DNA from: Liolophura sinensis | Lineage: Eukaryota > Mollusca > Polyplacophora > Chitonida > Chitonidae | Assembly: GCF_032854445.1 (NCBI RefSeq) | Contig: NC_088300.1 | Location: 36,313,608-36,377,607, forward strand | Direction of reading: 5' to 3' | DNA: 64,000 nucleotides | Notes under the pieces: model-generated | The model's input: the letters and a program-made list of their open reading frames with translations, nothing else | Told to the model about the DNA's origin: nothing | The model's database searches: none | Shown here: piece by piece, positions 20,087 through 49,984 of the stretch | How positions within the stretch are numbered: the stretch's first letter is position 1 | How the letters are laid out: each line of letters begins with the position of its first letter | Program-made: the position numbers and the translations under genes

Positions 20087-23000
20087 ATGCCTCACCCTTG
20101 GTAAGTTGTAGTTGAATGAGTAACAAATAAGATGCAAGTTCCCTACTAGGATTTACGATAAAAGTTTCTGGAATTTCATTGCTAATAGAGAAAACAAAAA
20201 CAGAAATGTAACATGAGATACGCATTAATCTAACGAAGATGGTGTTAAAGGCTTACGTTGAGGTGCACAGCACGCATACTAGCACTGAAGCAGAGATAAG
20301 AGGCAAAGGGGCATTTGTTAGACTCCGCGTGTTCTCACTGTTTTTATAAATCATAAATATATATTTCTGCATCCTGTCTCATTGTAAATAATGGAGGCAA
20401 TCCTGTATCTTTCATTCAGGCAAAAGGCTTTGCCTTGTGTACCTGGTGCGATGCGATGCATAAATATTAAACAATATCTGATTCATCCGCATAGAATACA
20501 AAAACAGGACTGCATAAATGTAATGCGGTATTTCTATCACACATTATAGTTATCAAAAGATATACATGTTTTACAGGAGTGTTGGTCTGCGTCTTACGTG
20601 TCTGGTTGCCTTGGTAATCTCTGGTTGCTATGGGGCAATGTCGGAGCCGTCCTTTGAGACACTGGATACATTATTTGATGTAGAGGATAGGGTAAACATA
20701 AGATTTCTCAGAGGTAATGTCAGCGTGTTCTTCCTTTTGCAGCATGATGTTCTATTGTAAGTACACATGCATTCAACGATTTAGGCCAATAAACTTCCAG
20801 TTTAAATCTATTAGTTACTACCTACGTTATTGGTTTTGTTTTAACATTTTTCTTGGTTTCGTCCTGGGTGAAAAACAGTTTTCACCCGGGAAAAAACAAT
20901 TTTCCCCTGGCGACAAAGGGCACTGTAACTACATGCATATTAATTAACAGCTTGGATATGAAAATATATGATATTTGGTCTTACAACACTTACCTGATCA
21001 TCTTTCCCTTCATCTTTTCGACTCCTTCACAGTTTCAATCCTGATGATAACATTTATCAGTTCAGTGAAACTCTTTTCACCCATGAGATAACTGTTTCGA
21101 CACAGATTAAAATTATTTTCACCCATGTGAAAAGCAAAGAAAAAATCTCGCACCTTAAGACTTAGATGTTGTGTGTCGTACTTTAGTCCTTGTTGATCAC
21201 AAAATACAATTAACAGAAAACTTTTTTTCCTGATGTTTTAATTTTGCATTGTGCGTGACAAGCTGAGATGCATACCATGTGGCGTGCAGAGTAATGTCCC
21301 TTTGTCCCTATTCTCACTGCCAACAGGCTGAATGCCGTCATAAAACATATTCTATTTTGCCAAGTGTATAGCATTTATGAAATGTTTATTGAATGTCGCA
21401 GTTGTAAAAGAGGCATTTTTCATTCCCATTGTTTCAGATCCTGTGCCTTTACACAGGAAGGATCTTGGAGCTGATTCCATCTCTTACTGGCAGTTTACCG
21501 TAAACGACAACGAATACATCATCATATCTGCGTCCCCAAATACAGGTAACAACAGAACAAACAGTGAACTAATTCATGGAAGACGGATGAGGCAAATCTC
21601 CAGTAGAATTTTAGTCTCGCGTTTTTGTGCTCTCGAGTCCTGCTTAATACCGCAATTTACACCCTTACTGATATATTTGTTGTTGTTTAGAGAAAACTAT
21701 GGGCCTTTGGCAAGTTACTGACGAATTTCCCCTCTTGTGACGTACAGGTATGCACACCACATTAGTAAGTGGCCCTCCGCGAATTTAAGACTGCAGAAAC
21801 GGCCACACATGACACCCTTTACTGTCACTACGAACCGTCAAAAGAACTGAATGCAAAGGAATCTACAAATACGGGGCCCAGTACGGGGCTTGAACCCGCA
21901 GGCCTGTATCGTGTATCACCGGCATTGAAGGACAAGTACCTCTTACCCCAGACCACGGCCCGTGCCCTAACTGGCCCATTAAATTTATTTATTTATTTAT
22001 TTATTTGATTGGTGTTTTACGCCGTACTCAAGAATATTTCACTTATACGACGGCGGCCAGCATTATGGTGGGTGGAAACCGGGCACAGCCCGGGGGAAAC
22101 CCACGACCATCCGCAGGTTTCTGATAGTCCCCCGCCCCATTAAAGGAGCTAATCTTGCCAAATTTTAATGTAATCAGAATGTTTTTCTAATCACGATTAC
22201 AGAAAGGGCCCGGGATTGGTACTTTTTTCAAGTTTTTCAGCTACCTGTAGCTTATATTAGCAGGTGCAACCAGTGAAATCTATCTTTTGACCTGGAAAAT
22301 TCATTTGAAATTTATTATGGATTTCGTTCATGACATCATTTCCTTTTGTTGTTTTTTTCTGCAGTGTGCTAGGAATAAATCTAGTGTCTTTTGGCATTGA
22401 CGAATGTTATATAGCAATGTTAAAGTCTATTTTGCTTAACTTTCTGAATGTTTGTATCTGTGTCATTTGCTATCAGTTTTTCTTTACATTTTCAAATAAT
22501 TTTTTGGGCGACTTTTGCTTTTCAAAATAAGAGCAGTAAACTCCCAAAGAGTTGTTTTCGATCAAAGGCCTCCATAGTTTCAAGTTTCTGTAGTATACAA
22601 ATAAATCGATACACCAGATTTGTCAGGTACCTGTTAAAAATTGGTATGGTCTGCACCAACCATAAGCCCATAATGAATACGGTATTAAATAAACTGTATC
22701 CTCTACTCTTCCTTTTTTATATTAATTTCCACAGGAGACTACAAATTGGTGTTTCAAGGTCCTTTACCCAGTATGACTGAGCTACTTGATCAGTCAGCTT
22801 GGGTGCGTGCGCAGAAATGTAGCAGATACTTCATGCTATCTCCTGACGTGACATTAGTGTGTGAAGATGAAAACAAGGAAGTCATTGCAACGACCAAGGA
22901 TCACTACCTAGATTACAAGGTATATTCGCACGAGTACAAAAACGTGCTGGTTATATCTTGATTGCTGAAAAGGTGTTAGTTGTATAGTTGGAATATAATA

Positions 23001-24891
23001 TAAGAGTTAAACAATAGAGAGTAAAACCAGAGCAGTGACGACAGTGTGATAATTGGAAAATGGTCAACAGTAACCGGTGTAATCTGGCCTTTTATAAGGG
23101 TAACTCAGTTAGTGTTCTATTCTAATTGATGATGTAAATGCTTGAACTACACATTATATCCCCCGAGCACTATTGCTTAAGTGGAATAAGGTAAAAAAAA
23201 TACAGCGATGTTGATTGTAATTTATTAGGCGTCTCTGATGTACAATTACTCAAAACGCTGTATTGTCGTCACATTTAACATGCGATAACATTAAAACAAT
23301 GCAAAAGTACCAGACATGCCAGTCTTAACCTGATTAAGTATGGTACGCATCATAATTATTGGAAATTATAATTATTTAGTTTATCATTTAAAACCAGCTT
23401 CTTTGTACCATTTTTGGTGGTGTGGGTTAGGGTGGGGTGGGATGTGTTGGGGTACGAGTTAATTGGTTCCAGTGAGCTCATTCATGTTGCCTAAATTTTT
23501 GCCTTCTAAGTTTTATTGCCACTCAGAGCTTTCCAGGGCTGACACGCATAATGACTTCTTCCAGAAAACGCCCTAGTTCTCCACGCTGCAATGAATTACA
23601 TGTAGCATGTGAGAACCTAGCGTCTGCTCTGTCGTTGTCTTAATTCAGGGTTCCGCTGTAAAAACATATAAATGCAATCGTTCTGCTTCGATTTCAGTCA
23701 ATGAATTCTCAAGACCCTACGCTACGGTACCGCTTTACTGAGGAACATTTCAAAAAGCTTGAAACTGACTGGGCAGACCGGGTTCGAGACATTGAAGAAG
23801 ACGGTATCTGGAATGGCCTGAGCGTGATACCGGCCGAGATGATACCACATGTCGACCAGGAGGAGTTACAAGGGGGACAACCCTTCATCCTTCGCCGTGG
23901 TCAGACCGTCAAAATAGCATTCACTGGAAGAGAGGAGATCAGATTTCACAGTCTTGATCACGCGGAACAACAGCTTTGTAACATATTTAACGTTTGTACA
24001 AGAGACAGGGAAGGACTTGTAAAGACGAGCTTAGCCCAGAAAACTTCCTACGGAGTCTCGTACATTGCACTCACCGTTCCGGTGTCGCTGCGAGGAGAAA
24101 ACATCCGCTTTAATGTTCACGTGAGGACGGATCTGGGTCTGGTGATCAAGCCCTTTATTATAGACCTCAGCAGGCGGTCTAAGAGGGCCACGTACAGCGA
24201 CTGGACGGAAATTAGTATTGGTAATGAGGAGCTTTTCCCGGACTATCGTCAGTTTGATATTGACGGATGTTCCGTTGGTTGCGGGGCTGTAGCTTGGTCA
24301 ATGATATTCGGCTACTTGGACAGGCGGTCTCATTTGCAAGAAAGCATATACGGAAACGGAAGCCAAGGTCTTTTCCGTTGTGACATAGACGGTACCTCCG
24401 GAGACAACAACTGCACGGCGCCAGCAAACAACAACAACGCTTTGGAACGGTACATGTATGTGCTGCGAGGCGTGCTTAAAACTTTCTGCCTGTTTGGCGA
24501 GGGAGCAACCACACAGGGTAACATGGATAACATCGAAGGCTTTTTCATTGATAGACAAACAACGGGCGCTCCTCGTATCACGTCTCACAAGCGGTTAGTG
24601 CTGAGCTTCCTTGGGGCTTACAGTTCTGACATCAGGGACACGGGTTTAGCAGCACTGAGGGCTGGTTGGCCAATTATTCCCGGCATTAAACTTAGTGGGC
24701 TCTTCTCTCAGCACTACCCCGTTGCCACCAAGTACAGATCCAGGGTAAAAACGTACAAGAAATGTTTCCTATGGATTTGCAGCGACAAGAGAACAACCGA
24801 ATACGAGATGTACCTTCATATGGGTTTCGGAGGCATTCAAAATGGTTGGAGAGCTGGGAAAATGTTTTTTGTTACGTATGCTAAATACTAG
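20087..24891 (+). CDS. P1: secreted papain-like (C10/C39-like) cysteine peptidase zymogen, 5 exons, 545 aa
   Basis: Exons: 20087-20100 (proposed), 20577-20713, 21438-21545, 22735-22919 and 23698-24891; 1638 nt with consistent phases (2,1,1,0). Exon 1 (ATGCCTCACCCTTG|GTAAGT) is placed by analogy with P2 and P4, whose second exons also start at an acceptor followed by G. An in-frame ATG at 20566 overlaps that acceptor and is the alternative start. The protein has a signal peptide (LRLTCLVALVISG core), the conserved SFETLDTLFDVEDR, a propeptide-like region, RSKR at residues 308-311, GCSVGCGAVAW with the likely nucleophile Cys343, SQHYPVATKYRSR with the likely catalytic His487, and YLHMGFGGIQNGW near the end. 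The Cys and His motifs resemble C10 and C39 peptidases; this is motif-level evidence only. P1 is the most diverged member: it has GCGAVAW where the others have GCGPVAW, and HMGFGG where the others have HMGWG. AATAAA follows at 25090. Confidence 0.8.
21745..21983 (-). repeat. SINE-C, a third tRNA-derived element, in P1 intron 3
   Basis: Read on the minus strand it begins GGCCAGTTAGGGCACGGGCC and has CAGGCCTGCGGGTTCAAGCC (B-box-like), followed by an unrelated body. A SINE-A is inserted next to its head end. Confidence 0.6.
21984..22135 (-). repeat. 5'-truncated SINE-A in P1 intron 3
   Basis: Tail TTTATTTATTTATTTGATTG then the standard body to CCACGACCATCCGCAGGTTT, where it stops; the tRNA head is missing. 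Flanking CCCATTAAA at 21975-21983 and 22136-22144 is a 9-bp target-site duplication. Confidence 0.82.
23010..23330 (+). repeat. R3 dispersed repeat, longest copy, in P1 intron 4
   Basis: About 320 bp from GAGAGTAAAACCAGAGCAGT to GATAACATTAAAACAATGCA. Copies or pieces occur at 12909, 16588, 35717, 36990 and 43692, all in the same orientation. It lacks a tRNA-like head and an open frame. Confidence 0.65.
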
Positions 24892-25089
24892 CCCGCCTTT
24901 CGATACTTTTTTTTACTGCTAAGCGCAGCATGTACAACTCACTGCAGCAAACTGCATGTACTTTAAATTACTGATTCCTCCACATTCACCACATTACTTT
25001 TCTACTTTTCCATCTATGTAGTTTGTTGGCATTAAACATCACATACTTATGTTCAAAAGAAAAGTTAACCATTTACAAATGTATACGTA

Positions 25090-25095
25090 AATAAA
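25090..25095 (+). other. Polyadenylation signal candidate of P1
   Basis: AATAAA within AAATAAATAAAT, about 200 nt after the P1 stop, is the first canonical hexamer downstream. Confidence 0.45.
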
Positions 25096-25404
25096 TAAAT
25101 ATGCATGCAATATAATCTGACAATTTAGTTGGTCATAAGATCTTGTCATTGTTTATACTTGCTCAGAAAGGCTTTCTCTGGGAGCTTTGAATATCTCAAA
25201 ATAATCTCCTGGGAAATGTTTCCTTTCTAAATCAGTTTAGCATCTGTAAAGGCAAGTGAGAGTGTTCCGAACAAAGAAAAGACGAACTAAAACCGCCCAG
25301 TATAAGTCAGTGCTTTGTTTTCATCTTTATCTGACATATTGGTGTAAAGCAAAAAAAAATTTGTTGCTTGATCCTAGCTTTTGAGCCCTAAACGGGCATT
25401 CCGT

Positions 25405-25595
25405 TCCTTTTTAAATTATTCTTATTGCTGTTTCACGTCGCTCTCAAAAACTTTTCACTTGTACGACGGAGGACAGGTTAATGGTTGAGGTACGTGGAAA
25501 ACCTGTTGACTTACAGCCGTAGTCGAACAACCCACCGCTGGATTCGAACTCGTGGCACCAATTGTCGGGAACCCCACTCCAACTGGTCCTCCCAT
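25405..25595 (-). repeat. tRNA-derived SINE related to SINE-A, diverged
   Basis: TTCACGTCGCTCTCAAAAAC, TTTTCACTTGTACGACGGAG and a B-box complement (CTGGATTCGAACTCGTGG) in the order expected for a minus-strand element. Confidence 0.6.
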
Positions 25596-26871
25596 TTTAT
25601 GTTCAGAATAAAACCCGGATTGAGGTCAACACTTCAGAGGCTCGATTTCACCGGTTACGTGATATCATTTACTATATATATCACACTGCTGTCGCTGCTC
25701 TACATGGCTTTACTCTAGTTTTATCTGCATAGAGTTCGTTTAGAATTTGTCCTACGAAATACTGAAAGATATAGGTCACGCAAGTGGTTCATATTTATTC
25801 TCTTTCATGAACTGTTCGTTTATTAGTATATTCACCAAATGTACAACCAGACTGATATAGCATTCAGTATACATGCAACATTCAGTTGTACGTTGTATAA
25901 CAACATTTCACTAATGGGATAGCAAGATCAATGGTAAAGAGTCCTTTATCCTGAAGGTCGTCTATGTCATGGAAAATAAGATGTATACATTCGTTGTAAT
26001 TCTTTATCTTCTGCTATACACAAAAGATTTCCTGAAATCTAAACCACATCTGTAAGAATTTAAGCTAAGTACATTATTCTCAGAACTCCGTATTTTCAAG
26101 CATTTACTGTTTTATGAATAGATTTTTGACTCACTTGTTCAAAAATATGAAAGTCACGTTCTCTTTTTGATAGTATGATTTTTGAGAACGGTCTTTTTAT
26201 TAATGAGAATTAATAAATCCTCGCTTTAAAATTATAAATGATGTTTCTGAATAACTGAATTAAATATTGTTCAAAAGATGTAAAGGTGTCAATATCTAAA
26301 CGAATACAACGAGCCAGGGTCATTTCCAAGAAACATTGTGCTCAAAAGTTTCTGTGTAAACACTGTCCCTGTTGTAGACATGCCCTGACTAAAGAAATGC
26401 GCGTACGAAGATTAAAGTAAAAGAAAACATCACACAGACACCTGAAAACTATGTGTACAAATACTTCGATTTATTTTTCAGATTTTTTTTCTAAAGTGTT
26501 GAAAGACATTCAGATATTTCAATACAATGGTGGGCTTTATGAGCAATTCTAACGGTTTCTAGGAACTTTTCTCACTCTTTTTTCTGTAGGTAATGAAAGA
26601 ACTGAAAGTAATTTCATTTCGTAAATTTTGCCTAGTCACCTACAGCAGCAGACGTTACGTATTCCTTCCTGGGTGATCTCCCTAGCAACATTGTTCCCTG
26701 GCTAAAGCATCCACTTGTAGCGCATGGCACACAAATGTGTTACTTCTTAGAACAGTGTTACTCGGTATAAGCTAAACCTTTTAAATTAATGTCAATAATG
26801 TAATGTTTCCTGCGCGATTTGCCCTTACTTAACTTACCCTGATCTAGCACTAATCAAAAATACATGGTCAA

Positions 26872-27060
26872 TTTATTTTTTAATTTAATTTTGCCGTAGT
26901 CAAGAATTCACGGCCATCCTCAGGTTGCTGGTAGACCTTCCCACGAACGGCAGTGGAGAAATCCAATATGAGCTGAACTTAAACTCACAGCGACCGCATT
27001 GGTGAGAGGCTTTTGGGTCATTGTGCCATGCTGGCACAATAACCAACTCGACGATGTTTT
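26872..27060 (-). repeat. SINE-A copy with internal deletion
   Basis: GCCGTAGTCAAGAAT joins directly to CACGGCCATCCTCAGGTTGC. It then continues through CAGCGACCGCATTGGTGAGA to GCTGGCACAATAACCAACTC near the head. About 60 bases of the body are missing. Confidence 0.7.
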
Positions 27061-29702: not shown

Positions 29703-32700
29703 ATGTTTGGGTAAGTACTAATAGTACCTCAGTGTTAATAAGTTTGAAATTTGCAAGCTACAAGTATGTGTCAAATATTTTATGTGTTTGCTTAATTTCC
29801 GAGGCTCTTGTCCAAACTGTTTGAATGTTGACTGCAAAATTTACAAATTTAATGCGTAAAATAGTTGAAAACAACAATATAATTCCTTGTAAACTGAATC
29901 TCACACTCCTGAAATTCAAAGGTCAAATCACGTTAATACACTTCCAAAATGTAACTTTACGAAATTTACTTTAATCTTATCATAAAATCTGTTTCTTCTA
30001 CCCATGTTGAGATGTTACATTCACGTTAAATTCACATTTATATGATGTTTGGTAATGAAGAATCTTTCGAGAGCAACCGATCGTATATTGAATGAATCGA
30101 ACATGAAATTCGTAAACTACACAAAATAATAATTTACGGTAATATTTCTGCAGTAATCACTCTAATATTTCCATGGTATAAACGCTTTTGAAAAATTTTC
30201 AATTTTCTTTCAAACGTAAATCGTAGCATTATTGACTGTAAATTTATTTGTAATAATTGTAATATTTGTAAATTTACATCTACTAAATTAAGAAAACCTG
30301 TAAATTTACGCATGCAAGTATCTGCTTATTTACAAAATCCCTATTGTAAATGAGCGTATAAAATTGAAATATAAACATAGTAAAAATTGCTCACCCACAG
30401 TTGCAATATTTTGGATATATATAAACAGTGAATAAACTTTAAAGAAAACCAGACTTTTTTAAATTTATAAAAACATTTTACAATATACAGTACGCTCTCA
30501 TTGGACGTGGGGCCATGGTAACAAAAAGTCATCAATGAAGACCACTTATTTTCCAAGTGCACACGTTATGACGTCATATGTGAAAACTTCGCCATTGTTT
30601 AGTTTCCTCCGTCCAAACTGACCCCGATCGAATTCTTGAGTACGGCTTTAAACAAGTATCAAATAAATAAATCCATAGAGCAAAGGCGATGAAAACAGAT
30701 ATTCTAATAAAAACAAAGTAACATATGCTTGAACCAGGAGATATGTATTGCAGAAACTTGGAGTATGGCATGAAGTGTTGGAAAGAACAGCAACATATAC
30801 AGTTGGTATTCATACATGACAATCTGTTTTTCAGCGTAACTTATAGCGTAACTCAACATAGCCCGTACTGATCCGCCCTCCGTTAGTCGGTTTTCTTCAC
30901 TTACGGCGATCTTGTATTTCAGGAGTTCGGGTTTGTTGTACGTGTGCATGGTTGCCTTGGTAACGAGCAGTGGTACTAGAGCGGAACCAGCGCCGTCCTT
31001 TGAAACCATAGATAACCTGTTCGATGTAGAGGACCGCGTCAAAGTTCATTCTATTAAAGGTAAACTATCTAAAAGTGTATTTCTGGCACTTGTGAATGCT
31101 TGTTTTATATACCAGGATGTAAGGTTAAATAGTTTGTATGGTTCCCAAAGGCCGCTATTATACAGCATTTGTAAGGAAAACTTTTGTCAAGTGCCCATAA
31201 ATAATGTGCTTTTTGTAAGGGACTACGAAGTGACATTTCAATTCACACTGACCAATAGAGGAGACAACAACATTCGATGTTAAACGTGCAAAGGCGTGCT
31301 TAAATTAGCACCATAATGACTTCAAGAGTTAGTACACTGTATACGGTGCATAAACGCATGATCTGGGCGAAACGCAAGGGTATGCACATTTTTACTGGGG
31401 CCAGCATCAGATATGTAGTTTTCACTGCTTTCAAATGCTTTTCACTTGCATAAAGTACCAGAAAGCAGTGAGTGTTTAAAAAGGGTAAGCTCCGTGTTAA
31501 AAAAAGGAACGCCCATGCTGTGGGCGAATAGTGCAAGTTTCGTGGTTACCCTTAAAGCCTATTTCTTCTAAAAAGGACACCTGGTCTGCTCACTTTAGCG
31601 GGTATCTATAAAATTTTAGCAGGAATACTGAGTTTCTTGAGTTTCTCACATCGTTAGACCATCCAATGAACAACACTCTCATCTTTACTTTTCCAAAAGG
31701 CTGGTAAAGAAATGTAATATTCTACTTTCAACACTACTAATATCTGTCCCAAATCTTAGAAGGATTAGAGTAAGTGTTTAAGCAGACACAGCTGTGACAT
31801 AATTACATTTAATTGCCCTGGCAACACATCTATATTTCTCTTGACATATTTATCAACATTAGTTAATCACTTATGAGTGCGGCGTAAAATAAATAAGTAA
31901 ATAAATAAATAAACTGAAAGTTTTTTGTATATGTGATTTATCCGTGTGTTTTTTTTTTTGTATTTTTTTTGTATTGGACATGTAAGATATTGAAGTTGTA
32001 ATGGATTCTCCTCGAGAAGTATAATATATAATATTTGGGTCGCACTATGATAAGAAGACTAAATGTTGTTTAACCTATGGCTGATCCAGCCATTACGACT
32101 TTATAATGGTCACAGTTTGATGAAGGTGGGCACTGACATCGTAACATGATATATATATTACCAGGATTTGATGATGACAACTTTGACTTAACTCAAAGCC
32201 TGCCAGTGGGGACAAGAGGGTTAAAGAGTTAATTCATCAGAAATCAGAATCAGAATGTGACGACACATTAAACTTCAAGAATAAAACCAAACTCCCTTGA
32301 CTAGCGCTGAACTCACTACAGAAATTCCATGAGATGTCGCAGGATAATACTAAATTCTGTCAAAATCAAATCAAAAGCAAAAAAAAACATACCTTACTTT
32401 AATATCATTTTTAATCTTATGTTCCTGATTTTTGTTTCCAGATCCTGTCCCAGTGTATAGGAAAGATCTTGAGGATGACTACGTGGCTTATTGGCAGTTT
32501 ACAGTGAATGGTGACGAGCAGCTTATTGTCTCGGCTGGCCCTCACACAGGTAACTACTAAAAGATACTATTCGCGCATTCTGATTTTCACAACAGATACA
32601 TGCGCCACGATAAGTTCCTTAGAAGGGGATTTTCATTACATTTGGTGACCCATTATGGCGAAACCAGTGATAAATCCCAGAGACTTGATTTTATGGTTGG

Positions 32701-34426
32701 CTATTTCCAGGAGACTACAAACTGGTTTTCCAGGGTAAATTACCCACCATGACGAGCATACTTGATCACATCGCCTGGGAAGGTGGTCAGCAATGTAACA
32801 GATACTACATGCTGTCTCCTGACGTCACCTTAATGTGCGAGGATGGAAATGGTCGAGTGATAGCAACAACCAGAGATTCCTACATTAAACATCAGGTAAT
32901 ACATGTGTCCTTCATGTACATCTACATGTAATTCAATGTTTCACTGAGTCGAATCAATCCATACCAACGCTTGGGGATGTCATGTTTAACCATACATGCC
33001 ATTTACTTGAATTTCCTGAAGACACAATGCTGGCAACAGTTTGAACTCAATAAGGGTTGGGGCAAGATCAAGTCACGTTCATTTTATATTTATACTGATT
33101 TAACAATCAGTATAAAGTATATTCAGCGCGTGCTGCACTCTTTATGATCTAGTGGCGACATCTGCATGAGAAATGCTAGGTGACTTTCCCTTTACAATTA
33201 ATATAATTGCTAATTTCTTTTTGTTTCAGCCAAAACATTCGAACGACACGTCTTTGCGGTACAGATATATCGAGAAGAATTGTCATAAGGTAAAACAGGA
33301 CTGGACTGAGAGAGCAAAGGAAGTGGGAGAAGACGGGGTTTGGGACGAAATGAGCTTCATACCTAAGGAGGCAATACATCAAACTGATGAAGACGACTTG
33401 GAAGCTGACGGACTCTTCATCCTTCATCGCGGACAGACAGTTAAAATTCCATTCACAGGTAAAGAAAGAGTTAAGCTTTTCAGTCCAGACCACAGTGAGC
33501 ACAGACTTTGTGAACTCTTCAATATCTGTACAGCTGACAAAAGAGGGAACGTGGACACGACTATCGCTCAAAAGAACTCTTATAACATATCCTATATCCC
33601 ATTAACCGTCCCTGAATCCATGCATGGGAAAGACGTTCGGTTTAGTGTCCGTGTGTACACAAGTCTAGGCTTGGTGATCAAGCGGTTTTATATCGACCTT
33701 AACACTCGATCAAAACGACAAACATACACTCCTTGGGTGGAGGTTAGTATTGGACACGAATCCATTTTCCCAGACTATCGTCAATTCAAAATCGAATCTG
33801 GTTGTGCGGTGGGCTGCGGACCTGTAGCATGGGCAATGATATTCGCCTACTTCGACAGGCGTTCTCATCTGCAGGCGGCTGTGTACGGAAGCGGAAGCCA
33901 GAATCTCTTCCGGTGCGGCGCAGACGGTACGGCCGGAGCAGCTTCGTGTGTGGCCCCGATTTCAAACAACAACCAGGTGGAGGAGTACCTTAAGGTATTG
34001 CGAGGCATCTTGAGGACCTTCTGTATAAGAGGAGAGGGAGCAACCCTTCAACGCCGCATGGACGACGTGGAGGGGTTTTTTAAGGCACGTCAATCCTCTG
34101 GATCCCCAGATGTAATTTCTCACAGAGTTCCCCTGATAGGCTTCTTTGGGGTTTACAATTCCAGGGTTAGGAGCAAAGGACTAGCTGCGCTGCGAGCTGG
34201 TTGGCCAATCATACCGGGCATTCGTGTGGGCGGCCTTTTCTCTCAACACTACCCTGTGGCCACGAAGTACAGATCGCGAGTAAAAACACAGAGGAGGTGC
34301 TTTTTCTGGAAATGCTGGAACAAACGGACGACCGAGTACGAGATGTATCTTCATATGGGCTGGGGGGGCAATCAAAACGGTTGGCGTTCTGCTAAGATGT
34401 TTTTTGTTACCTATGCAAAGTATTAA
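29703..34426 (+). CDS. P2: secreted papain-like (C10/C39-like) cysteine peptidase zymogen, 5 exons, 544 aa
   Basis: Exons: 29703-29710, 30923-31059, 32442-32549, 32711-32895 and 33230-34426; 1635 nt, phases 2,1,1,0, ending in TAA. The 8-nt coding part of exon 1 (ATGTTTGG|GTAAGT) supplies MF and two bases of a Gly codon. Exon 2 encodes the hydrophobic core (GLLYVCMVALVTSS), probable cleavage after GTRA, then SFETIDNLFDVEDR. Exons 3-4 contain the YWQFTVN and MLSPDVTLMCEDGNGRVIA blocks. The single large exon 5 carries the rest of the pro-region, RSKR at residues 306-309, and the mature domain: GCAVGCGPVAWAMIFAYFDR with likely nucleophile Cys342, SQHYPVATKY with likely catalytic His486, and YLHMGWGGNQNGW. 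The spacing of Cys, Ala and aliphatic residues parallels C10 peptidases (GCVATA-type) and CGP of C39. Substrate unknown. Exon lengths match P1 and P4, and intron edges match P3 and P4, so duplication is recent. Confidence 0.87.
30632..30672 (+). repeat. SINE-A tail fragment in P2 intron 1
   Basis: ATTCTTGAGTACGGCTTTAA followed by ATCAAATAAATAAATC matches the SINE-A 3' end in + orientation. Confidence 0.6.
31870..31915 (+). repeat. SINE-A tail remnant in P2 intron 2
   Basis: GAGTGCGGCGTAAAATAAAT followed by AAGTAAATAAATAAATAA resembles the tail of SINE-A. It is too short for certainty. Confidence 0.45.
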
Positions 34427-36102: not shown

Positions 36103-36213
36103 TTTGATTTATTTATTTGATTTGTGTTTAACGCCGCACTCAAGAATACTTCACTTATACGAAGGCGGCCAGCATTATGGATTTTTATCATTACGCTGCG
36201 CTAGCTCGATAAC
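36103..36213 (-). repeat. Internally deleted SINE-A with perfect 14-bp target duplication
   Basis: The tail and first body block (to GGCCAGCATTATGG) join to the head-proximal ATCATTACGCTGCGCTAGCT, skipping the middle. Direct repeats TATAAAACAATTTA at 36089-36102 and 36214-36227 are identical, which indicates a young insertion of an already deleted source copy or a deletion after insertion. Confidence 0.82.
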
Positions 36214-36989
36214 TATAAAACAATTTAGAAAGCTCACATCTGTTTATAAAGATGTTTATAAACATTAAAGTTTTTAATGACCCATGAACAAATTTTACAA
36301 ACAGGAGACCAGGGAGATGAATTTGCATTTGAAAATTAATGTAAAAGTAGTTAGCCATCAGCTCATATGTACATGATATGCGTCTGATTAATATAATTGC
36401 GACTATTATACCTCTTGTTTTTCTTGGTTTCCATTGGTCAGTTCACTTTCACAGAGACATCTAGAGCCACTGCGGTGGAATACATAGTTGTGTATATACA
36501 GTAGGAAAGCAGCTAATAAAGGTCATACCTGATTGCACAAAATGCGTTGTAACAGTTGTTCATGTTGTATTGGTTTTTAGGCCAACTGCACTTTGCCTGC
36601 CAGAGTAGCCCCCCTTCATTTTCTGAAGTTTTATCCTCTTTACTTTTCATTTCAGACTCTAAGAAGAGTAGACTATTACTGTGTCTGTGATACAATGTGC
36701 CAAAACTTAAAACTATTTAAGTAAGAAAGTTTAGACTTGATTATAGAAATCAGTTTTATTGTATGACCACAATGCAAATACAGTAATAAATGTTTCCCGG
36801 GGTTATCTATAAAATAGATCACCACAGTTACTGTATGATTCATTGATAAATGCCAAACTGTTCTGTACTCTTTTCACATTTAATAAGGGATGAAGGCCTT
36901 TCATGTAGTGTCTTTGAAATTGACATTAGTTTTTAAACCAGAGGCATTTGATATATTTAAATCAGGCAAATTACTTTTATCAATATAAA

Positions 36990-37302: not shown

Positions 37303-37417
37303 ATCTGGAATAACAAGCTGTATGCAAAAAAGCATACACGTTTGTGTTAGTAAGTATCAGTTCCAACTATAGGATTTAAAACCATTTTTAGTCGTATGTT
37401 CGTGATTTTTGATGTAG

Positions 37418-40064
37418 ATTCTGTACCAGTGTACAGGAAAGATGATGACTACGTGGCCTGTTGGCAGTTTACAGTAAATGAGTTTACAGCAACTCATTGT
37501 GTCGGCTGCAGATCGTACAGGTAACTGGCCTTTAATCAAAAAGCAGGGAAGTTTTGAGTTAGAACTCTTTGTCACTAAAGGTGAAAATAGCCCTTCTGTA
37601 TCATGTAAATTACCGATCACCTGTCTCGTTATTTTCTGGATAGACCACTGACAACGCTTTTTTCTTGAAAGTTCACAAAGGCTCAGTTCATCAAATGTTT
37701 CCATTGTTCGTTTTCAGGCACCCATGCTATAGTAAATGTAATCAAAAATAGTTGCCTAACATTTCTGACAGGTCACGTGGTACAGTAGAACGTTTTCTGC
37801 CTTTAGCGATAACAGAGTGCAAACTTTAAAATCCCATCTTGTAAACATTTCCTGTTGCATTTCGTAGGAGACTACAAACTAGTTTTTTAGGGTAAATTAC
37901 CAACTATGACGAGCATACTGGATCGCATGGCCTGGGAAGGTGGGCAGCGATGTAACAAATACTTCATGCTGTCTCCTGACGTCATCGTAATGTGCGAGGA
38001 TGGAAATGGTCGAGTAATAGCAACAACCAGAGATTCATACATGAAATATCAGGTAATACATCTGTCCTTCATGTACAGCTCATTCAACAACCATTAAAAT
38101 GAATTTAGCAAATCGGTCATATTTGACCATGCAAGCTTCCTAGGCCGTTTAATAATCAATCAAAGGTTGGGAAGAGAAAAAAATATCTATGGTGAATAAA
38201 CTCCCAGTGTTATAGCGAAGGTTTCCCAAATAAACATTTTACCAATTTTTGTGATTGTGTGGTTTGTAAAAGAACATCAATCTAAACAATGAGCAGTACA
38301 AAGTATATTCAGTTCTTGTGGCAATCAATACAACCTAGAGTTGAGATATTATGTTTGTAAAAGCATCCTTCATGAGGACATTCCCAGATCAAACTGGCCC
38401 TAATAACTCTCCTCTGACTGTCAAACGTCAAATATTGATGGGCATGCCGTGCTCTGTAAACATTAATTTATTGTTAAGTTTCCATTACCATAGTGATTTA
38501 AAAGAGGTCTACAACGCTTTTAATTTTTGCCAAAACTACTACCAAGAAGTTTCTCCTGTTGTTGCATAAGATTGTGGAATTTTCTAAAAAATGGTTCAAA
38601 TATTATATATTTTAGTATAACTCTTCGAAACTCTCCATCGTAACGTATTATGGCTAATGTCTATAGCTTACTCCCAACTGTTTTCAAGGTGTGGCCGTTG
38701 ATGATGTTTGTCATTCATGTTTAAACAAAACAAAACAAACAAACAGTCTTTGTGACGTTATTGACTGACAGGTGAATGGGCCAGTTTTATGTCACGGCGT
38801 TCTAAAACCCAAGCTATGACCACTTGAACAAATCACAGACTGTCCAAAATTTGTCCGATATATTCCTGACCGAACACGAGCTACAGATTGCATACCCTTC
38901 CTATAAAAAGTATAGATAAAAAAAATATAAAAAATGATCGCAATCGTCACCTTGTGCTTACACTGATAATTTTCAGTTCTAGATCAAAAGTTTTGGAGTT
39001 CACTTTAAAACTTGCTGAACCATCGCAATGACTTGACTGCCCGAGCAACGTTTGAGGAATAATATGGAGTTTGGGACAAAAGGAGCTTCATGTCCAAACA
39101 AGCCATTCAGCGGACTCTTCATCCTTCACCGAGGGCATACTGTGAAAATTCCATTCACTGGAAAAGAAAGAATCACACTGTTTTGTCCAGACCACAGTGA
39201 GCACAGACTTTGTGAACTCTTCAATATCTGTACAGCTGACAAAAGAGGGAATGTGAACACGAATATTGCTCAGAGGAACTCCTATAGCATGTCCTATATT
39301 GCCCCTGAGTCCCTGAATCCATACAGGGGAAAGGCGTTCGGTTTAGTTTTCGTGTGTACACAACATCAGGTTTGGTCATAAATCGTATTTACTTCGACCC
39401 AAATAGTCGATCAAAATGAGGTGTAGTAAATGCCCCTTGGAAAGTAGTCAGTATTGGGCATGAAGCCATTTTTTCAGACTATAGGCAGTTCAAAATCAGG
39501 TCCGGCTGTGTTGTGGGCTGCGGGCCAGTAGCATTTGCAGTGGTATTCGGCTACTTCGACAGGCGTTCTCATCTTCAGACGAATGTCTACAGAAAAGGAA
39601 GTCCGAATCTTTTCCGGTGGGAAAAGCCGCTTGAGTGGCCCCACGTAAAAACAACAACAAAGTGAGGCAGTACATACAGGTTTTTCGAGGCACCTTCTGT
39701 CTAACTGGGGATGGAGCAACACCACAAAGTCGGATGGACAACGTTCAGGGATTTTTTCCCAAAGAGCTCTGATGGGAGGATTCTTTGGGGCTTACAGTTC
39801 AAAGGTAGGGACAACGGACTGGCGGCACTGAGAGCTGGTTGGCCAATGATTCCGGGTATTCGTGTGGGCGGACTTCTCTCCCAACACTACCCTGTGGCTG
39901 CGAAGTATAGATCACGAGTGAAAATACAAAAAAGTGCTCTCCCTGCAAATGTTGAAACAAAGGGATCACCGAGTACGAGATGTTTCTCAATATGGGTTGA
40001 AGAGGCCAGGAGAACTGTTGCTATCCTGCTAAGATGTTTCTTGCCTATGGTAAAAATTAACCTA
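37418..40064 (+). pseudogene. P3: disabled copy of the P-family peptidase gene (exons 3-5)
   Basis: Exon 3 counterpart 37418-37520 is 103 nt against 108 in the intact genes, so the frame is lost. Exon 4 counterpart 37868-38052 keeps 185 nt and both splice sites but has TAG at 37888-37890 where the intact P genes have the Gln codon of VFQG. The exon 5 counterpart starts only near 39055: its first 35 or so codons are gone. A frameshift follows the PES block near 39320. TGA at 39417-39419 replaces the last Arg of RSKR. The GC.VGCGPVAF motif and FSQHYP-like segment remain recognisable, and a stop falls within the HMGWGG counterpart. I found no exons 1-2. Introns are retained, so it arose by DNA duplication and not retroposition. 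Intron edges resemble those of P2 and P4. Confidence 0.88.
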
Positions 40065-41459: not shown

Positions 41460-41818
41460 ACCGGCCAGGATGGCACAGTTGGTAGAGCGTCCGCTTCGGG
41501 ACCGGTAGATCCAGGATCAATCCTTGATCGAGTCACACTTAATACTTTAAAAGAGGAAGTTGTAACTTCCTCGCTTGGCGTTCAGCATGAAGGGGATAGT
41601 GCAATGACTGGTTGACCCGTATCAGTATAATGGCCCGGGCGGGGCGGCTTACTTGCCATCGGTAAGTCGTCTCAGTGAAGCAGCACTAAATAAAAGAGCG
41701 GTGGAAATCCGTCCTGCTACTAGGGGGTACATTACACGTACATGCACCCTAAGTCATATCGTCGTCATATGACTGAAAAATTGTTGAGTACGACGTTAAA
41801 CCCCAAGCACTCACTCAC
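41460..41818 (+). repeat. Full-length SINE-B with 11-bp target duplication
   Basis: The tRNA-like head reads CCAGGATGGCACAGTTGGTA / GAGCGTCCGC with GATCAATCCTTGATCGAGTC as B-box-like region. A body of about 250 bp follows, ending in CGTCGTCATATGACTGAAAA and a CACTCACTCACTC-type end. TCTCTGATGAG at 41449-41459 and 41819-41829 is a perfect target-site duplication. Confidence 0.88.
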
Positions 41819-42420
41819 TCTCTGATGAGCATAGCGCTATATTTGACCTGTAACAGTCGTGTTGTTGAAAACTATTATAAACCGACACACTGAACTAAAC
41901 AAATCACTAATCGTGTTTCGACTGTTCACGTTTCGATGTCTTTCATTTTGTCACAAAGCTGAATTGAAGGCCCGAGAAGTTACCGAAAGGTATATAAATA
42001 AATATGGTGTTTGAATCAGCAAATCCTCTATTACCCCAAATTACATGTATACTGGAGATATTTGGTAACATTGGTGAGGACAAATGCTGCCCTTTTTTGT
42101 TAAACGTGTGTGCGTTTTCGTATGAATACGACTCTCTATTATTTAAGATTAATCTTTATCAAGCTCAATCTCTCTCATTCACTCGACGATGTATTGCTGA
42201 TCTGTTAGCTTTAAATAATCCTTTTTTAACAATGGCTGGGAAAGAACTGCGTACACCCTTACCGTCCAGGCGCTACTTCTTGCTTAGACATATCTGGACA
42301 AAGGCAATGTCGGTTTCCTATCACACTGATTATAAACAAGAAACAGTTTCAGTTTTGATATTTTTAATTATCCTTATTTGAATAGTATTGATATATCGAA
42401 GGCTCTCGTGTGTCATGTTT

Positions 42421-42631
42421 TATTTATTTATTTGTGTCTTACGTCATACTCAAGAATATTTCAATTATACGACGGCGACCATCATTATGGTGGGAGGAAA
42501 CCAGGCAGAGCCCGGAGGAAACCCACAACCATACACAGGTTGCTGTCAGACCTTCCCACGTACGACCGGAGAGGAAGCCAGCATGAGCAGGACACGCACA
42601 GCGTCAGCATTAGTGAGAGGCTCCTGGGTCA
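42421..42631 (-). repeat. 5'-truncated SINE-A
   Basis: TATTTATTTATTTGTGTCTT then the body through ACCGGAGAGGAAGCCAGCAT to GTGAGAGGCTCCTGGGTCA; the tRNA head is absent. TGTCATGTTT at 42411-42420 and 42632-42641 is a 10-bp target-site duplication. Confidence 0.82.
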
Positions 42632-43247
42632 TGTCATGTTTTGATATCTCAGCTTGCAGCATTCCTTAGAATTGCTCCTATATGTTGTGTGACAAGCAAC
42701 GTGATAAGTTAGCTAGGACAATTACACAATAAATATAAGTGTTTCGTTTTAAACACATTTCTGTTACGGTTTAGAAACGCGCCCCAATGTTTAGTCATAA
42801 AATGTCGATATTTAGAAACTAAACACAAATAGTCCAATAAAGATATGTGTATATTGTGCGTAAAATGCCGATGAACATGGAAATGTGTTCATGTAGCATA
42901 GGTATGAGGCTTAGAAACGTTGCGCTAAATACGTGTAGTCATCGCTGTTATACTAGTGGTTACTATTGTATCAGCAGGTTTTTGATCAGCTGAACTTTGC
43001 CTAGGAGAGTAGCCCCCCCCCCCCCCCCGCCCCACTCTCCCGCCCTCTTTTTTTCGCTCAAATTTCTTCTGCTTTATACATTTGCTCTCAGACCCTCGGT
43101 ATATTGGCCGATGAGTTTATCTGTAGTATGGTTGATTAAAATCTATGTAAATAGACAAGGTTATATTGCGTCAGAAATTAGCTGACAAACATGATGCATA
43201 TACATCACTATTTCTTCCCGCGCTGATTAGTGGGATAAAGAGTCTTC

Positions 43248-43255
43248 TATATAAA
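43248..43255 (+). promoter_or_regulatory. Orphan TATA box, possible distal promoter of P4
   Basis: TATATAAA followed by CGGATCACAAG resembles the P2 promoter core TATATAA followed by CGTGATCCACAAA. No P-type start exon follows within 100 bases. A spliced 5' UTR joining the acceptor-like TTTTTCAG ending at 45875, just before the P4 start codon, is possible. Confidence 0.3.
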
Positions 43256-43691
43256 CGGATCACAAGAGTTTCCGAACGATCTGTTTACAATCAGGAACAA
43301 ACGTCGTCTAAACGAAGTCTATCTAATTGATTTCCCTTTTTTCTACGGGTTTTCTTCTACGGGTAACTGTTATTTTTTGTCTCTGATCTGTTACAAGGTA
43401 AATATTACCCTCAGTCAACCTGAAAATACTTTGGCTAGTCCTTCTAAAATTTATTTACACCGGGTCAATCCACAACTGAACCACAAATATAAATAATATT
43501 GAAGGCCCGGATATCCTCTCAGGCTGTACCTCCGGTAACCTCTCTGTTACGCCTTGACACTAACTAGGAAATCCGAATCTACAGTTTCATTTACTTTGGC
43601 ATATTAGATACGACTGAAAGGATTTACTAAAGGAAGATCTTTTGCCGATACCTTTAATTTAAGTATATCCACAAAATATAAACGACTTATA

Positions 43692-43995
43692 GACAGCAAA
43701 TCCAGAGCAGCGACGATAGTGTGCTAGCTGGCAAATGGTGGATCTAACACGTAAAATATGACCTTTTGTCAGTTTACCTCGGTTAGGGTTTTATTCTAAC
43801 ATGTTCATGTAAATACTTGAGAGGCAAAATACGCGTCCCTAGCACCTTGGCTTAAGCAGAATTAGGTAAAAAAAATACATTGGTTTAAGATGCAATATCT
43901 TAGACGTTATTGATCTAGAATTATTCAAAAATGCTGTGTTGTTACCACATTTAATATGCAATCACATTAAACAATGAAAAAGGGATGCTTGAACC
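43692..43995 (+). repeat. R3 dispersed repeat upstream of P4
   Basis: CAGAGCAGCGACGATAGTGT, CAGTTTACCTCGGTTAGGGT, TGTTCATGTAAATACTTGAG, GGCTTAAGCAGAATTAGGTA and CACATTTAATATGCAATCAC match the copy at 23010 in order. Confidence 0.65.
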
Positions 43996-45915
43996 ACCAG
44001 AAATATACTGGCGATACTATACAATACTACTATATACTATACTACTATACAATACACCACGCTTCTCCATTTTAAAGAAAATAGCTCTACACAGAAATAT
44101 TTAGGCGTACAGAAAGTCCATTCTGTTTGCATTTGTAAGCAGCATCTCAATTGCTTAACAATCATTCTTGATTGACGTTGACAGAGGTAGAACAATTATA
44201 TCTCAAAATAATTTTCCATTGTTGATATTAAAATTACAAAGCGTAAAAAAGGCTTAGAAGAGCACTCAAGAGCTCTCGTATATAAGTTGAATGTTGATGT
44301 TTCAAAGGTTTGTCAGATTTAATTTTAAATGAACATATTCCTCAGTGTAGTTCCATCTAAAGGGCAGTGTCACAAAACTTAAGAACACAAAAAAGTTAAA
44401 TGTGTGTAATGTATCTTCTTTTTGAACTTGCTTTAGCTATGGGAGTGATGGTTGTATATATAGGAGTGAGTCACTTTTAATTTTTATATACCTTTGCTTT
44501 TCAAAGCCTTGAAATCTTACATTTCGCTGTGATAATTATGTGATTTATCATTTTCCTCAATTAGAGCGCTGTTCTAGAGTCTAATTTCATGCTCTCGGTG
44601 TGTCTAACGTAGCCGTTCTCCACAGTCGAACAGTTTACACTTATAGTTTTTGCATCTGCGTTTTATTTGAAAGTAAGACATGTTGTTTATCATGACATCA
44701 CCAGAGACTATGGTGGCTTCGCCTCGAAAACAAACTTATGAAGTTCACCATTATTCAATAAAAAGCAGTCAAAGCGCATATTCTTTGCAATAACATGAAC
44801 GTCCTGCATATAGATATTTAGATCTTATAGGCAGCTTTTGTTCATGAGCATAAGTGATTTGACAGAGACGAATATAGGCAAATCGTTGAAACAAAGACTA
44901 TTGTGTGGTAGCTTTGGCTTTGAACCAGGTTAGAAGATTATGCATTTTCATTTTATTCACTATATAACAGTAGTATACACATGTACACCAGCTTCCAGAG
45001 AGAGTGAAGTGAACTTGTTCTATCCAAAACTCAGGAAGCTTTACATTTTTTTCATAATTCTGATATGCAATAATAACGTAGGATAAAGCACAGGAATCAA
45101 ACCGTTAGTTAAGAAGTAAATGACCTGTCACTTTAGATTTGAAGGGTGATGCAGAATTGATAGATTTTATGCACAAGGATATCATCTTCCTTAAGATGCT
45201 ACACTCTTCACTTTTTACCAGCAACATGTCAACGTACATTTGGACAAGAGCTCTCATGCAAAATATCCCCGATCTTATAACTGGGCTGTCATTACTCATA
45301 TTAACTTGGATATTATAAAATCAAATTGGCAGTTTCAGCTGCTGTTCATTTTCTTGATAAAAAGCTCTCTCTAAAATTTCCAGATAATCGCTAACTTACA
45401 CAGGTGTGGCTTTGTTATTCCCTACTGGATTCTAACCTAATTTCTTGTATAGTACTTAAAGTGTCGAGTTTCCCTTTCTTTGTCAATGTTTCTTTTAGGA
45501 CTGTGCAGGATACATTCTTCCGCCGAGGCGAGACATAAAAGGGCGTTATTCCGAACAACATACAAAGATATAGATACAATATTCCTCTATGTGCTTTTAT
45601 TCAGCTCCTTGCAGGTTTCACGTGATCATAGGAGTAGATTTACCCAAGCTGTTTATCTTTTCATAAAACATCCACGGGGGTTTGAGTGGGCAAAGTTCAT
45701 GTGGGTCTGATAATAACTGACCTAATTCAGTTGGAACTTGGGTTTGTTTACGTCCGGGATCTGACGGTAGATGTCCCCCTTTGTCGTATAGTTTCAGAAA
45801 CAACCAATCATTTCAAGCTTTGTAACGTAGGCCGAGACTTTACAGTCTTTTACAGTCTTACAGAGACTTTTTCAGTGTATGGCCTGTACATCAAGCACAC
45901 ACAAACAGAATCAAC

Positions 45916-48900
45916 ATGTTCGGGTAAGTACTTAGCTTGAATTAGTTGGTGAAACGCCGTGAATTTATTTCTTACTCAATATTTCATTATGATTTGATTT
46001 ATTTGAATTGATTGGTGTTTTACGCCGTACTCAAGAATATTTCACTTATACAACGGCGGCCAGCATTATGGTGAAGGTAAACCGGGCAGAGCCAGGGGGG
46101 AAACACACGACCATCCGCAGGTTGCTGACAGACCTTCCCACGTACGGCCGGAGAGAAATATTTCACTTTGTATTACAGCATCGTTAATACAGGTTAAGTA
46201 ATGTATTTACAATAAATGCTGAAAGGTTGAGTAACAAACTGACTTCAATTCTCGGAGTTTCACTCACTAATATGAGGTTTAACAATAGTTAGCTTTTACA
46301 TGTCAAGATCATGAAATCAACGATTCATTAAGACCTTTGCCTGTCGTTCAGTAATCAGTAATACTTCGACAATAATCAATCGAACACATATCCAGCCATG
46401 CGTGACCAAAGTAATGGTTTCCAAATTTCAAGTTCATGAATATTAATCGCACATATTGGCGAAAAAATATCGAAAAGATATGAAGTGTCTTGGTGGCACC
46501 TGAGAGATACCCGAGAACATCTATACAGTTAATCCTCAATGATGTCAATATATTTCCAGTGGTTTATTTCTTCTAAATTTTATGGGAAAGGAATATTTAA
46601 AAAGTATAAGTAGAAAGACCATTAATATTTTGTCCCATTTTTATGTTTGAATGGTAATGTGCGACAAGGCGAATCTTACTTCAAATTCCTGTTCTGTGGA
46701 TATACAAAAAGCGGGTGCAACATCAGTGACGACATGCGTTATCAATATGGCTCATAAAGCCACCTTAAATATGCCAAATACTTGACTGGATTTATTTCAG
46801 TGAAAGAAAAATACAAAAAATATAACTAAAGGTATTTTCCGTTACAGATTTTAATGGCCTTTCTACTGATGCTTTCTAATGAATTTATAATATTTTTTCT
46901 CTTTAACACTGCCTCTTCAGATAAGAGGATAAGGTATTATGCCCTTGTGTTTTCATTTATCACAATTTCCAGGAAATCAAGTCTGCTTTATGTGTGTCTG
47001 GTTGTCGTAATTACCATCAGTTTTCTTGCTGCGGAGCCACACATGTCCTTCGAGGCAATAGACTCGCTGTTCGATATAGAGGACCGGCTGGAAATTCATT
47101 CTCTGAAAGGTAAACTCTCAGTGGATGAATGTGGCATATTGTGGAGGCTTAACTAAATAATGTGATGCCTTTGGTTTAAATACATGATGTGCCGGCTCAA
47201 ATGCGGCTCTGAACGGAGAACTTGTATAATCTACCGCTCTCACTGTTTGACAATAAACAGTTGACGACATATGGGTGACGTTTTGTGCAGTTTGACTTTT
47301 ATTGAAGACCATTTATCAACATAGTGTGTATATCAAGATATTAAATATCCACTTCAGGGCCAGATTTATGTTTGTTCTGTCCTGCCGATTTTATTTCTTG
47401 ATATATAAGTGTATTTTTCTTCCAACAATATGGTGCATGTGTCTGTACATCACAAGTGAGAAAGTTGGTCAATAACTCAAAGGTCAGTGGTTTAGCCGCG
47501 GACTTCGGTTTCATCCACTCAGTTCAAGGATCTACATTGTATAAGTGAATAACTCTTAACTCCCAGGAATTCTTAACTCCTGATGTAAAGGGCTTTGCTC
47601 TATAAATTGGACTGTTTTTCGTTGGGTAAATAATCGTTGTAAATAATTATCCGGTGCCGAATGAAACCTTTTTGAGAATAGTTGTGAGTAGTAGAAACCC
47701 TGGCTGTTTCGGCTGTAGTCTGACCTTCAGACTTTGCCAGGTATCCGGTGAAGGTCATTGACTAACTTCATGCACTCCAGATCCCCATATCCATCGACCT
47801 GACTGCGCATAATGTATTGGAAGTGAAAAAGAAGGCGTTGAACACCTGTCAATTATTCCCTGTAAACGGTGACTTTTTATATATTTGCCAGCAGCTTCAC
47901 CTTCTTCTAGTCGTATGTTTGTGACTTCTGTTTCCAGACCCTGTTCCACTGTATAGAAAGGATCTCGATCATAGATACGTGGCCTACTGGCAGATTACTG
48001 CAAATGATGACGATCAGCTAATTGTGTCCGCTGGCCCTCAGACAGGTAATTGGAAAACTATACTTTCGTTCACATTCCAAATTTTACAGCTGTCTTAATT
48101 CAACTTTCGCGGAAATGCACTCAGTGTTTTGAAAGCGTGAAAATCACGATATATTGTGAATTTGGCGACATGAACTAATGCTGCAAAAACGAAAACTTTT
48201 TGAGTTCGTTGTGTTGCTATTTTATGATGATGTGGTGGTGATGATGGTGATGATGGTGGTGTTCGTTTTCATTTTGTGGCGGCTTCATTCTGTCTGGTGA
48301 GCAGTCGTGTTTTCCTGTCAGTGAGTGACCCCACTGTTATACGCCGAATACTTAAACATTTCCTTTTCGCTTTCCGCAGGAGACTACAAACTGGTTTTCC
48401 AGGGTAAATCACCCACCATGACGAGCATACTTGATCACATCGCCTGGGAAGGTGGGCACCGATGTCAAAGATACTACATGCTGTCTCCTGACGTCACCCT
48501 AATGTGCGAGGATGGAAATGGTCGAGTGATAGCAACAACCAGAGATTCCTACATTAAATACAAGGTAATAATCTGTCCTTCATGTACAGCTGATTCAACT
48601 GGGACTGTTGTATTTGACCACCCGAGAGTGGAATGTCCTGAAAATTATTTACCCACAAGAGCTTGAAAACTTGTTTCATATGACAATTATAAACAATTAT
48701 ACTTTTTTTCAACTCATTGTCTTCTCACCTGCATTATAATACACGCCATTTCCAGGATGCAGGTTTGTAATTTTTTCCCCTTTATTTTAGCCAATTTCGA
48801 ACGACACGTCTTTGCGGTACAGATTTATCGAGAAGAACTGTCACACCCTGAAAATGGACTGGACTGAGAGAGCGAAGAAAGTGGAACAAGATGGGGTTTG

Positions 48901-49984
48901 GGACGAAATGAGCTTCATACCTAAGGAGGCAATATATCAAGCTGATGAAGACGACTTGGAAGCTGACGGACTCTTCATCCTTCATCGCGGACAAACAGTT
49001 AAAATTCCATTCACAGGCAAAGAAAGAATCACACTGTCCAGTCCAGACCACAGTGAGCACAGACTTTGTGAACTCTTCAATATCTGTACACCAGACAAAA
49101 GAGGGGTTGTGGACACGACTATAGCTCAAAAGAACGCTTATGGGATGTCCTACATCGCTATAACAATACCTGAATCCATGCACGGGAAAGACGTTCGGTT
49201 TAATGTTCATGTGTACACAAGTTTAGGTTTGGTGATCAAACGGTATTACATCGACCTGAACAGTCGATCAAAGCGACAAACATACACACCTTGGACGGAG
49301 GTCAGTATAGGGCACGAGTCCTTCTTCCCGGACTATGGGCAGTTCGATATTGAATCTGGTTGTGCGGTGGGCTGCGGACCTGTAGCATGGGCAATGATAT
49401 TCGGCTACTTCGACAGGCGTTCTCATCAACAGACATCGGTCTATGGAAGCGGAAGCCAAAACCTCTTCCGGTGCGGCGCAGACGGTACAACCGGAGCGGC
49501 TTCATGTGAAGCCCCGCCTTTAAACAACAACCAAATACAGGAATACATCAAGGTTTTGCGAGGCATCTTGAAGACCTTCTGCCTAGCAGGCCAGGGAGCA
49601 ACACCACATTTTCTCATGAACAGCATCGAGAGCTTTTTCCAGGAACGGCAGACCACTGGATCTCCAGATATCGTTTCGCATGAACGTGGTTTCCTGAGCT
49701 TCTTAGGAGTTGACAGCTCAACTATCAGAGACAAAGGCCTGGCTGCCTTGAGAGCTGGTTGGCCAATAATTCCGGGTATTCGAGTCAGCGGAATATTCTC
49801 TCAACACTACCCCGTGGCCACGAAGTATAGATCGCGCATGAAAATACAGAGGAGGTGCTTTTTCTGGAAATGCTGGAACGAACGGACGACCGAGTACGAG
49901 ATGTATCTCCACATGGGCTGGGGAAGCTTTTACAATGGTTGGCGTTCTGCTAACATGTATTTTGTCACATATGCCAAATATTAA
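45916..49984 (+). CDS. P4: secreted papain-like (C10/C39-like) cysteine peptidase zymogen, 5 exons, 543 aa
   Basis: Exons: 45916-45923, 46973-47109, 47938-48045, 48380-48564 and 48791-49984; 1632 nt, phases 2,1,1,0, stop TAA. Exon 1 (ATGTTCGG|GTAAGT) mirrors P2, including similar sequence just upstream (CAAGCACACACAAACAG against GAAGCACATACACCACAG). The signal peptide has the core SLLYVCLVVVITISF with probable cleavage after LAA. MSFEAIDSLFDIEDR, the YWQITAN block and MLSPDVTLMCEDGNGRVIA follow. Exon 5 carries RSKR at residues 305-308, GCAVGCGPVAWAMIFGYFDR with likely nucleophile Cys341, SQHYPVATKY with likely His485, and YLHMGWGSFYNGW. It is closest to P2 by eye throughout, including intron edges. 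An in-frame ATG at 46854 is unlikely to be the start because it would read through the acceptor region of exon 2. Likely a secreted zymogen activated at RSKR; substrate unknown. Confidence 0.87.
45991..46150 (-). repeat. 5'-truncated SINE-A in P4 intron 1
   Basis: GATTTATTTGAATTGATTGG, GTTTTACGCCGTACTCAAGA and the body to CCCACGTACGGCCGGAGAG. AATATTTCA at 45979-45987 and 46157-46165 may be the target-site duplication, at a few bases' distance from the element on both sides. Confidence 0.72.
48222..48264 (+). repeat. GATGGT-type microsatellite in P4 intron 3
   Basis: TGATGATGTGGTGGTGATGA then TGGTGATGATGGTGGTG is a simple trinucleotide-like tract. Confidence 0.75.

Follow-up and report, generated by a model that had tools for sequence, protein, structure and literature searches.

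Does an animal genome hold a tandem set of secreted cysteine peptidases resembling those of the streptopain type, which have been described as bacterial enzymes? The question is raised by a stretch of 64,000 nucleotides of contig NC_088300.1 (G000:C6:36313608-36377607, in a genome of 609 Mb), hereafter the window, for which a first-pass annotation had proposed three intact genes (P1, P2 and P4) and one pseudogene (P3), encoding precursors with a signal peptide, a pro-region, an RSKR site and a domain similar to peptidases of families C10 (streptopain type) and C39. The array is borne out by its open frames, its splice models and the breaks in P3, and the gene set gains one further intact, diverged member on contig C13. 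These genes are best read as a family new to Pfam, and we put at about 0.7 the probability that they encode secreted cysteine-peptidase zymogens related to the C10/C39-like branch of clan CA.

A shared precursor arrangement

All four intact proteins, those of P1, P2 and P4 and that of the C13 gene, have a hydrophobic segment near their N terminus, followed by a pro-region of some 300 residues, an R-X-[KR]-R site and a mature domain. The most hydrophobic 11-residue span lies at the N terminus in every one of the four, and would direct the protein into the secretory route. A start methionine followed by a signal-like segment is seen in P1, where an in-frame ATG at 20566 precedes the hydrophobic segment, and in the C13 protein. 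For P2 and P4 no start codon was located before the segment, which directly follows a splice acceptor; the start codon must therefore lie farther upstream, in another exon. The signal peptide that had been assigned to each gene thus stands for all as a hydrophobic segment, and with its ATG for P1 among the window genes.

The R-X-[KR]-R motif occurs exactly once per protein and at the same aligned place in all four, reading RSKR in P1, P2 and P4 and RDRR in the C13 copy, so that the motif has been kept while its letters changed. Such conservation lends weight to the dibasic activation site predicted earlier. The mature domain that would be released is 234-235 residues long in the window genes and 248 in C13, and its identity to P2 is 77% for P4, 67% for P1 and 50% for C13. 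The motifs VGCG, SQHYPVA, YLHMG and NGW are invariant, and both RSKR and the three motifs by which the domain had first been recognized are present in P1, P2 and P4. Seven cysteines of the mature domain are also invariant, namely the putative nucleophile and six others, an even count compatible with disulfide bonds, however these may be paired. The Cys and His proposed as catalytic are both there; the numbers Cys342 and His486, which had been given for P2, are those of P1, and the same residues are 339 and 483 in P2 as read.

The extent to which the sequences have been held in place can also be judged from the ratio of nonsynonymous to synonymous substitution rates (dN/dS), which for P2 and P4 is 0.30 in the pro-region and 0.205 in the mature part. 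This is the only pair that we used: among 12 estimates seven were saturated and five numeric, and three of the five had a dS above 2 and are unreliable. P2 and P4 have diverged under constraint.

Variation is seen in the G[WF]G loop, which reads GWGG in P2 and C13, GFGG in P1 and GWGS in P4. Replacement of the Trp by Phe in P1 and of the last Gly by Ser in P4 would fit a secreted protein that retains a C10/C39-like fold but is no longer catalytic, and that acts as a binding protein or an inhibitor, and enzymatic activity is in any case deduced here from sequence. The Cys and His are nevertheless invariant in all four intact copies, at a distance where half of the mature residues differ between C13 and P2, and the activation site has been kept with them. 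We regard loss of catalysis as quite improbable, and continue with the reading of these proteins as peptidase zymogens.

Relationship to families C10 and C39

The four-sequence alignment of the mature domain was compared by hhalign with profiles built here, using column shuffles as controls. It scored 28.9 against C10 (shuffles 14.6±2.8) and 37.4 against C39_2 (shuffles 12.8±2.3), values that none of 200 shuffles reached in either case; on the same scale, C10 scores 52.0 against C39_2 and 34.5 against papain family C1. The C39_2 profile comprised 13 of 21 loci (15 were cut out, two of them mis-cut and dropped, and six weak ones were left uncut). The C10 alignment covers 189 columns, about 18% of those aligned being identical, and in it the landmarks pair in order: in the numbering of the mature P2 fragment, Cys35 falls on the catalytic Cys, His179 on the catalytic His and Trp217 on the Trp of GWGG. 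Cys35 is paired in this way under all five hhalign settings and His179 under four of the five, the alignment made without realignment stopping short of it. When the part of the domain after the Cys region is taken alone, it scores 21.65 against C10 on the GWGG loop, above all 120 shuffles by a narrow margin (the highest shuffle reached 21.3), and 18.9 against C39_2 on 15 columns, again with 0/120 shuffles as high.

An independent family scan leans in the same direction. When the C13 mature domain, the most diverged of the four, was run against 24,736 Pfam models, only Peptidase_C10 (PF01640; expectation value (E) 0.0078) and Peptidase_C39_2 (PF13529; E 0.17) were listed, the curated cut-offs of these models being 26 and 24 bits, respectively.

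A number of results weigh against a C10/C39-like assignment, and we gather them here. In none of the proteins or parts scanned does a Pfam family reach its cut-off: the C10 match is far under its threshold at 16.9 bits for C13 and 13.8 bits for P2, the C39_2 match (12.9 bits) is confined to one of the four members, and the mature domains of P1 and P4 have no Pfam match. The PDB, searched by sequence and by profile, yielded no peptidase. The C10 profile was built from nine sequences of two bacterial genomes only, the short L075 having been left out of ten loci, and the hhalign probability for C10 is 16% in local mode and 63% in global mode. The raw Viterbi path against C10 covers 50 columns around the Cys, so that pairing of the His needs posterior realignment or global mode. 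The match to C39_2 is confined to the Cys helix (GCGP...M...Y, 38 columns), and when it is forced longer His179 pairs with S171 under three of the five settings and is not reached under the other two. Beyond these points, no NCBIfam family scored above its cut-off in the three last exons of the window, and PHROGs gave no match.

The interpretation first drawn by eye is accordingly upheld in part. Matches to Pfam models below cut-off and the shuffle-controlled hhalign scores support the C10/C39 resemblance as one between distant relatives. That the family belongs to C10 or C39 in the narrow sense is not supported by these comparisons; for C10 this is because the curated cut-off is not reached and the exact NWGWGG motif is absent, the loop being aligned but not matched, with H-M here in place of its N-W. 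The GG before the C10 His (GGH) is likewise not kept, the motif reading SQH here. Since the C39_2 match lies mainly in the Cys helix, C10 serves better as a template for the domain as a whole, and the match to C39_2 is the stronger one locally.

Two further explanations turn on these data. One is that the family is unrelated to clan CA and that its GC...H...GWGG pattern is like that of C10 by chance. Absolute scores are indeed weak, no PDB peptidase is related by sequence, and a profile search of prokaryotes brought up no real relative apart from one weak C39-type match. Against this, the shuffled columns failed to reproduce the score for C10 or for C39_2 or, narrowly, that of the C-terminal part against C10, and two other families do not stand out: papain C1 (PF00112; 13 of 14 loci in the profile, one being mis-cut, with L167 included without its first 38 residues) scored 19.4, which 9 of 120 shuffles reached, and NlpC/P60 (PF00877; 10 of 15 loci, five being mis-cut near contig ends) scored 10.9 with the whole mature domain, a value obtained without shuffles, and 10.96 with the C-terminal part, which 66 of 120 shuffles reached. 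We consider a chance likeness very improbable.

The other explanation keeps the papain-like fold and gives it a different chemistry, such as that of transglutaminases, ligases or deamidases of the Cys/His type, with secretion and convertase activation in the same manner. It would account for the third active-site position, where the Asn of the C10 NWGWGG motif is aligned with the invariant His of YLHMG and neither Asn nor Asp is found, and for family scans in which no peptidase rises above cut-off. The best matches are, however, the peptidase families C10 and C39_2. Moreover, according to the C10Pred paper (PMC9455582), streptopain itself has no equivalent of papain's Asn/Asp, and Cys and His are the residues named as catalytic; the missing Asn is therefore no argument against a peptidase, and an invariant His at this place is compatible with a C10-like enzyme. 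A non-peptidase enzyme thus seems unlikely, somewhat less so than the loss of catalysis considered above, and a cysteine peptidase remains our preferred reading.

Close relatives were sought outside the animal, and no prokaryotic or viral one was found in the collections searched. A profile was run on 395 + 282 + 396 + 398 = 1471 prokaryotic genomes in four groups, of which 34 gave a match at a per-genome E <= 0.1 (the lowest being 0.00119), a number not above chance expectation. Thirty of these 34 matches were read on the matched strand: 29 showed no related frame, and one (L103, E 0.064), matched at the Cys helix, was recognizable as a C39-type protein. The tblastn hits in four plasmid and six phage records all had E values of 0.5 or worse, and two of the four plasmid records were inspected and held no related frame. 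Stretches carrying the pattern in viral contigs (1 and 14) and genome contigs (89) yielded none that was confirmed as a relative.

Gene structure in the window and on contig C13

Only three frames of at least 150 codons (stop to stop, in six frames) are present in the window. All are on the + strand, they are mutually alike, and they correspond to the long final exons of P1, P2 and P4, at 409, 418 and 397 codons. Exon models, based on a comparison among the array's four repeats and on inspection of the splice borders, give three intact four-exon genes with products of 540-544 residues as read, GT/AG at all internal exon borders, and two middle exons of 108 and 185 nucleotides whose lengths are identical in the three genes. 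P1 (20566-24891) opens with an exon holding the start codon and the hydrophobic signal-like segment (20566..20713), continues with two pro-region exons (21438..21545 and 22735..22919) and ends with an exon encoding the rest of the pro-region, RSKR and the peptidase-like domain (23698..24891); the array had been taken to begin at 20087, and the P1 model begins at 20566 instead. P2 (30923-34426) and P4 (46973-49984) are built alike, with an exon for the hydrophobic segment whose start codon lies outside it (30923..31059 and 46973..47109), two pro-region exons (32442..32549 and 32711..32895; 47938..48045 and 48380..48564) and a last exon carrying pro-region, RSKR and peptidase-like domain (33230..34426 and 48791..49984), all on the + strand. 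P3, also on the + strand, survives as remnants of three exons in the interval from about 37375 to 40061: two degraded pro-region exons (37375..38080), the second with an in-frame stop, and a broken last exon (39037..40061) with several stops and frame breaks. It is called a pseudogene because stop codons and frame breaks cut these remnants.

When the last exon of P2 was searched against the whole genome, with only the best candidates scored, eight places came up. Three are the window genes, four are fragments of P3, and the eighth is an intact exon on contig C13. The genome may contain further, more distant copies. The C13 gene is intact, encodes 570 residues and is 40% identical in its last exon; its exon order is that of the window genes, with two pro-region exons upstream of the last exon in the same order and a first coding exon, its donor site chosen as the best consensus, that holds the ATG and signal-like segment. 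In this gene (G000:C13, near 18450709-18461899, - strand) a splice-acceptor-like site immediately precedes the ATG, a placement that would fit an intron within the untranslated leader. The acceptors of P2 and P4 adjoin the signal segment, with no ATG in front of it.

The host had been taken to be an animal, and this holds and can be narrowed to a mollusc by a run of haemocyanin beta-sandwich domains, which we take to be molluscan. Eight such domains follow one another over about 11 kb at G000:C8:37880506-37891931, in open frames of 429-529 codons, and a run of that number would fit a gastropod.

Repeats are found between and beside the genes. The window contains six copies of a dispersed repeat some 135 bases long (10593-10727, 12470-12604, 21996-22130, 36108-36242, 42418-42552 and 45999-46133), which is probably a short interspersed element. 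With the copy at 21996 as reference, identity is 64-83%, and one copy lies within a P1 intron. No tRNA or Rfam match was found in the window at the gathering cut-off. A 53-base tandem array (50156-50512) starts about 170 bases past the stop codon of P4. Upstream of the genes are a 41-base tandem repeat of twelve copies with 93% matches (6123-6612) and two arrays about 5 kb apart (9225-9824 and 14389-15178), with periods of 67 and 68 bases and different consensus units.

Proposed mechanism, origin and known systems

We propose the following course of events for these proteins. The precursor would enter the secretory route through its N-terminal signal, and the pro-region of about 300 residues would fold with the enzyme and block it. 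A furin-type proprotein convertase would then cut after RSKR, or RDRR in the C13 copy, and the released domain of 234-248 residues, presumed to have a papain-like fold, would cut peptides by means of the Cys of VGCG (Cys342 in P1) and the His of SQHYPVA (His486 in P1). The invariant His of YLHMG (His521 in P1) possibly stands where papain has its Asn, and might then have a catalytic role.

An inhibitory role for the pro-region invites comparison with Inhibitor_I69, which is over its Pfam cut-off in at least five of the nine bacterial C10 genes (all five of genome G001, the four of G003 being outside the search). The pro-region of the mollusc proteins has no Pfam match above cut-off and none to Inhibitor_I69. 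Against I69 profiles made from nine upstream pieces in a first run, and from eight in a second (six of seven loci, L152 being empty, plus two from C10 loci), its score was reached by 1 of 100 and 4 of 400 shuffles, respectively, a weak likeness, and the two kinds of pro-region failed to align when compared globally over their full length. The likeness to I69 is thus suggestive at the level of sequence profiles. Two other candidates for the pro-region were set aside, each seen in one of three proteins: phloem protein 2 in P4 (E 0.018, below cut-off) and DUF4841 in C13 (E 0.19).

One conceivable history is that an ancestor of this mollusc long ago took up a bacterial zymogen of streptopain type (I69 + C10), after which introns were gained, the pro-region was enlarged and host convertases took over activation, leaving an animal C10-like family on two contigs with a tandem expansion on one. 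We offer this tentatively and think it rather doubtful. No animal C10-like peptidase was found in the open-licence literature (titles and abstract openings) among the matches listed. An animal family that shares this order of motifs and carries a convertase-type site would illustrate how an enzyme of this kind can be handled safely and put to use in the animal secretory pathway, and genes that have no Pfam assignment would gain a name. Such a family would also open a direct test between a bacterial origin and an unnoticed eukaryotic branch of clan CA.

Papain family C1 has the clan-level plan, Cys then His, and is made as a zymogen. Some members of NlpC/P60 use His as the third residue, and the mollusc family might likewise do so. 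With C39_2 the nucleophile helix aligns strongly, and the His is out of register with the C39_2 His. The closest parallel over the whole domain is the C10 streptopain type, in which the VGC(V/G) nucleophile helix, the His and the GWGGxx[ND]G[YW] loop come in the same order and a pro-region stands in front, as it does here. Unlike C10, the mollusc proteins have a two-Cys loop between the His and the GWGG motif, a much longer pro-region and a convertase-type site, and they are encoded by spliced animal genes.

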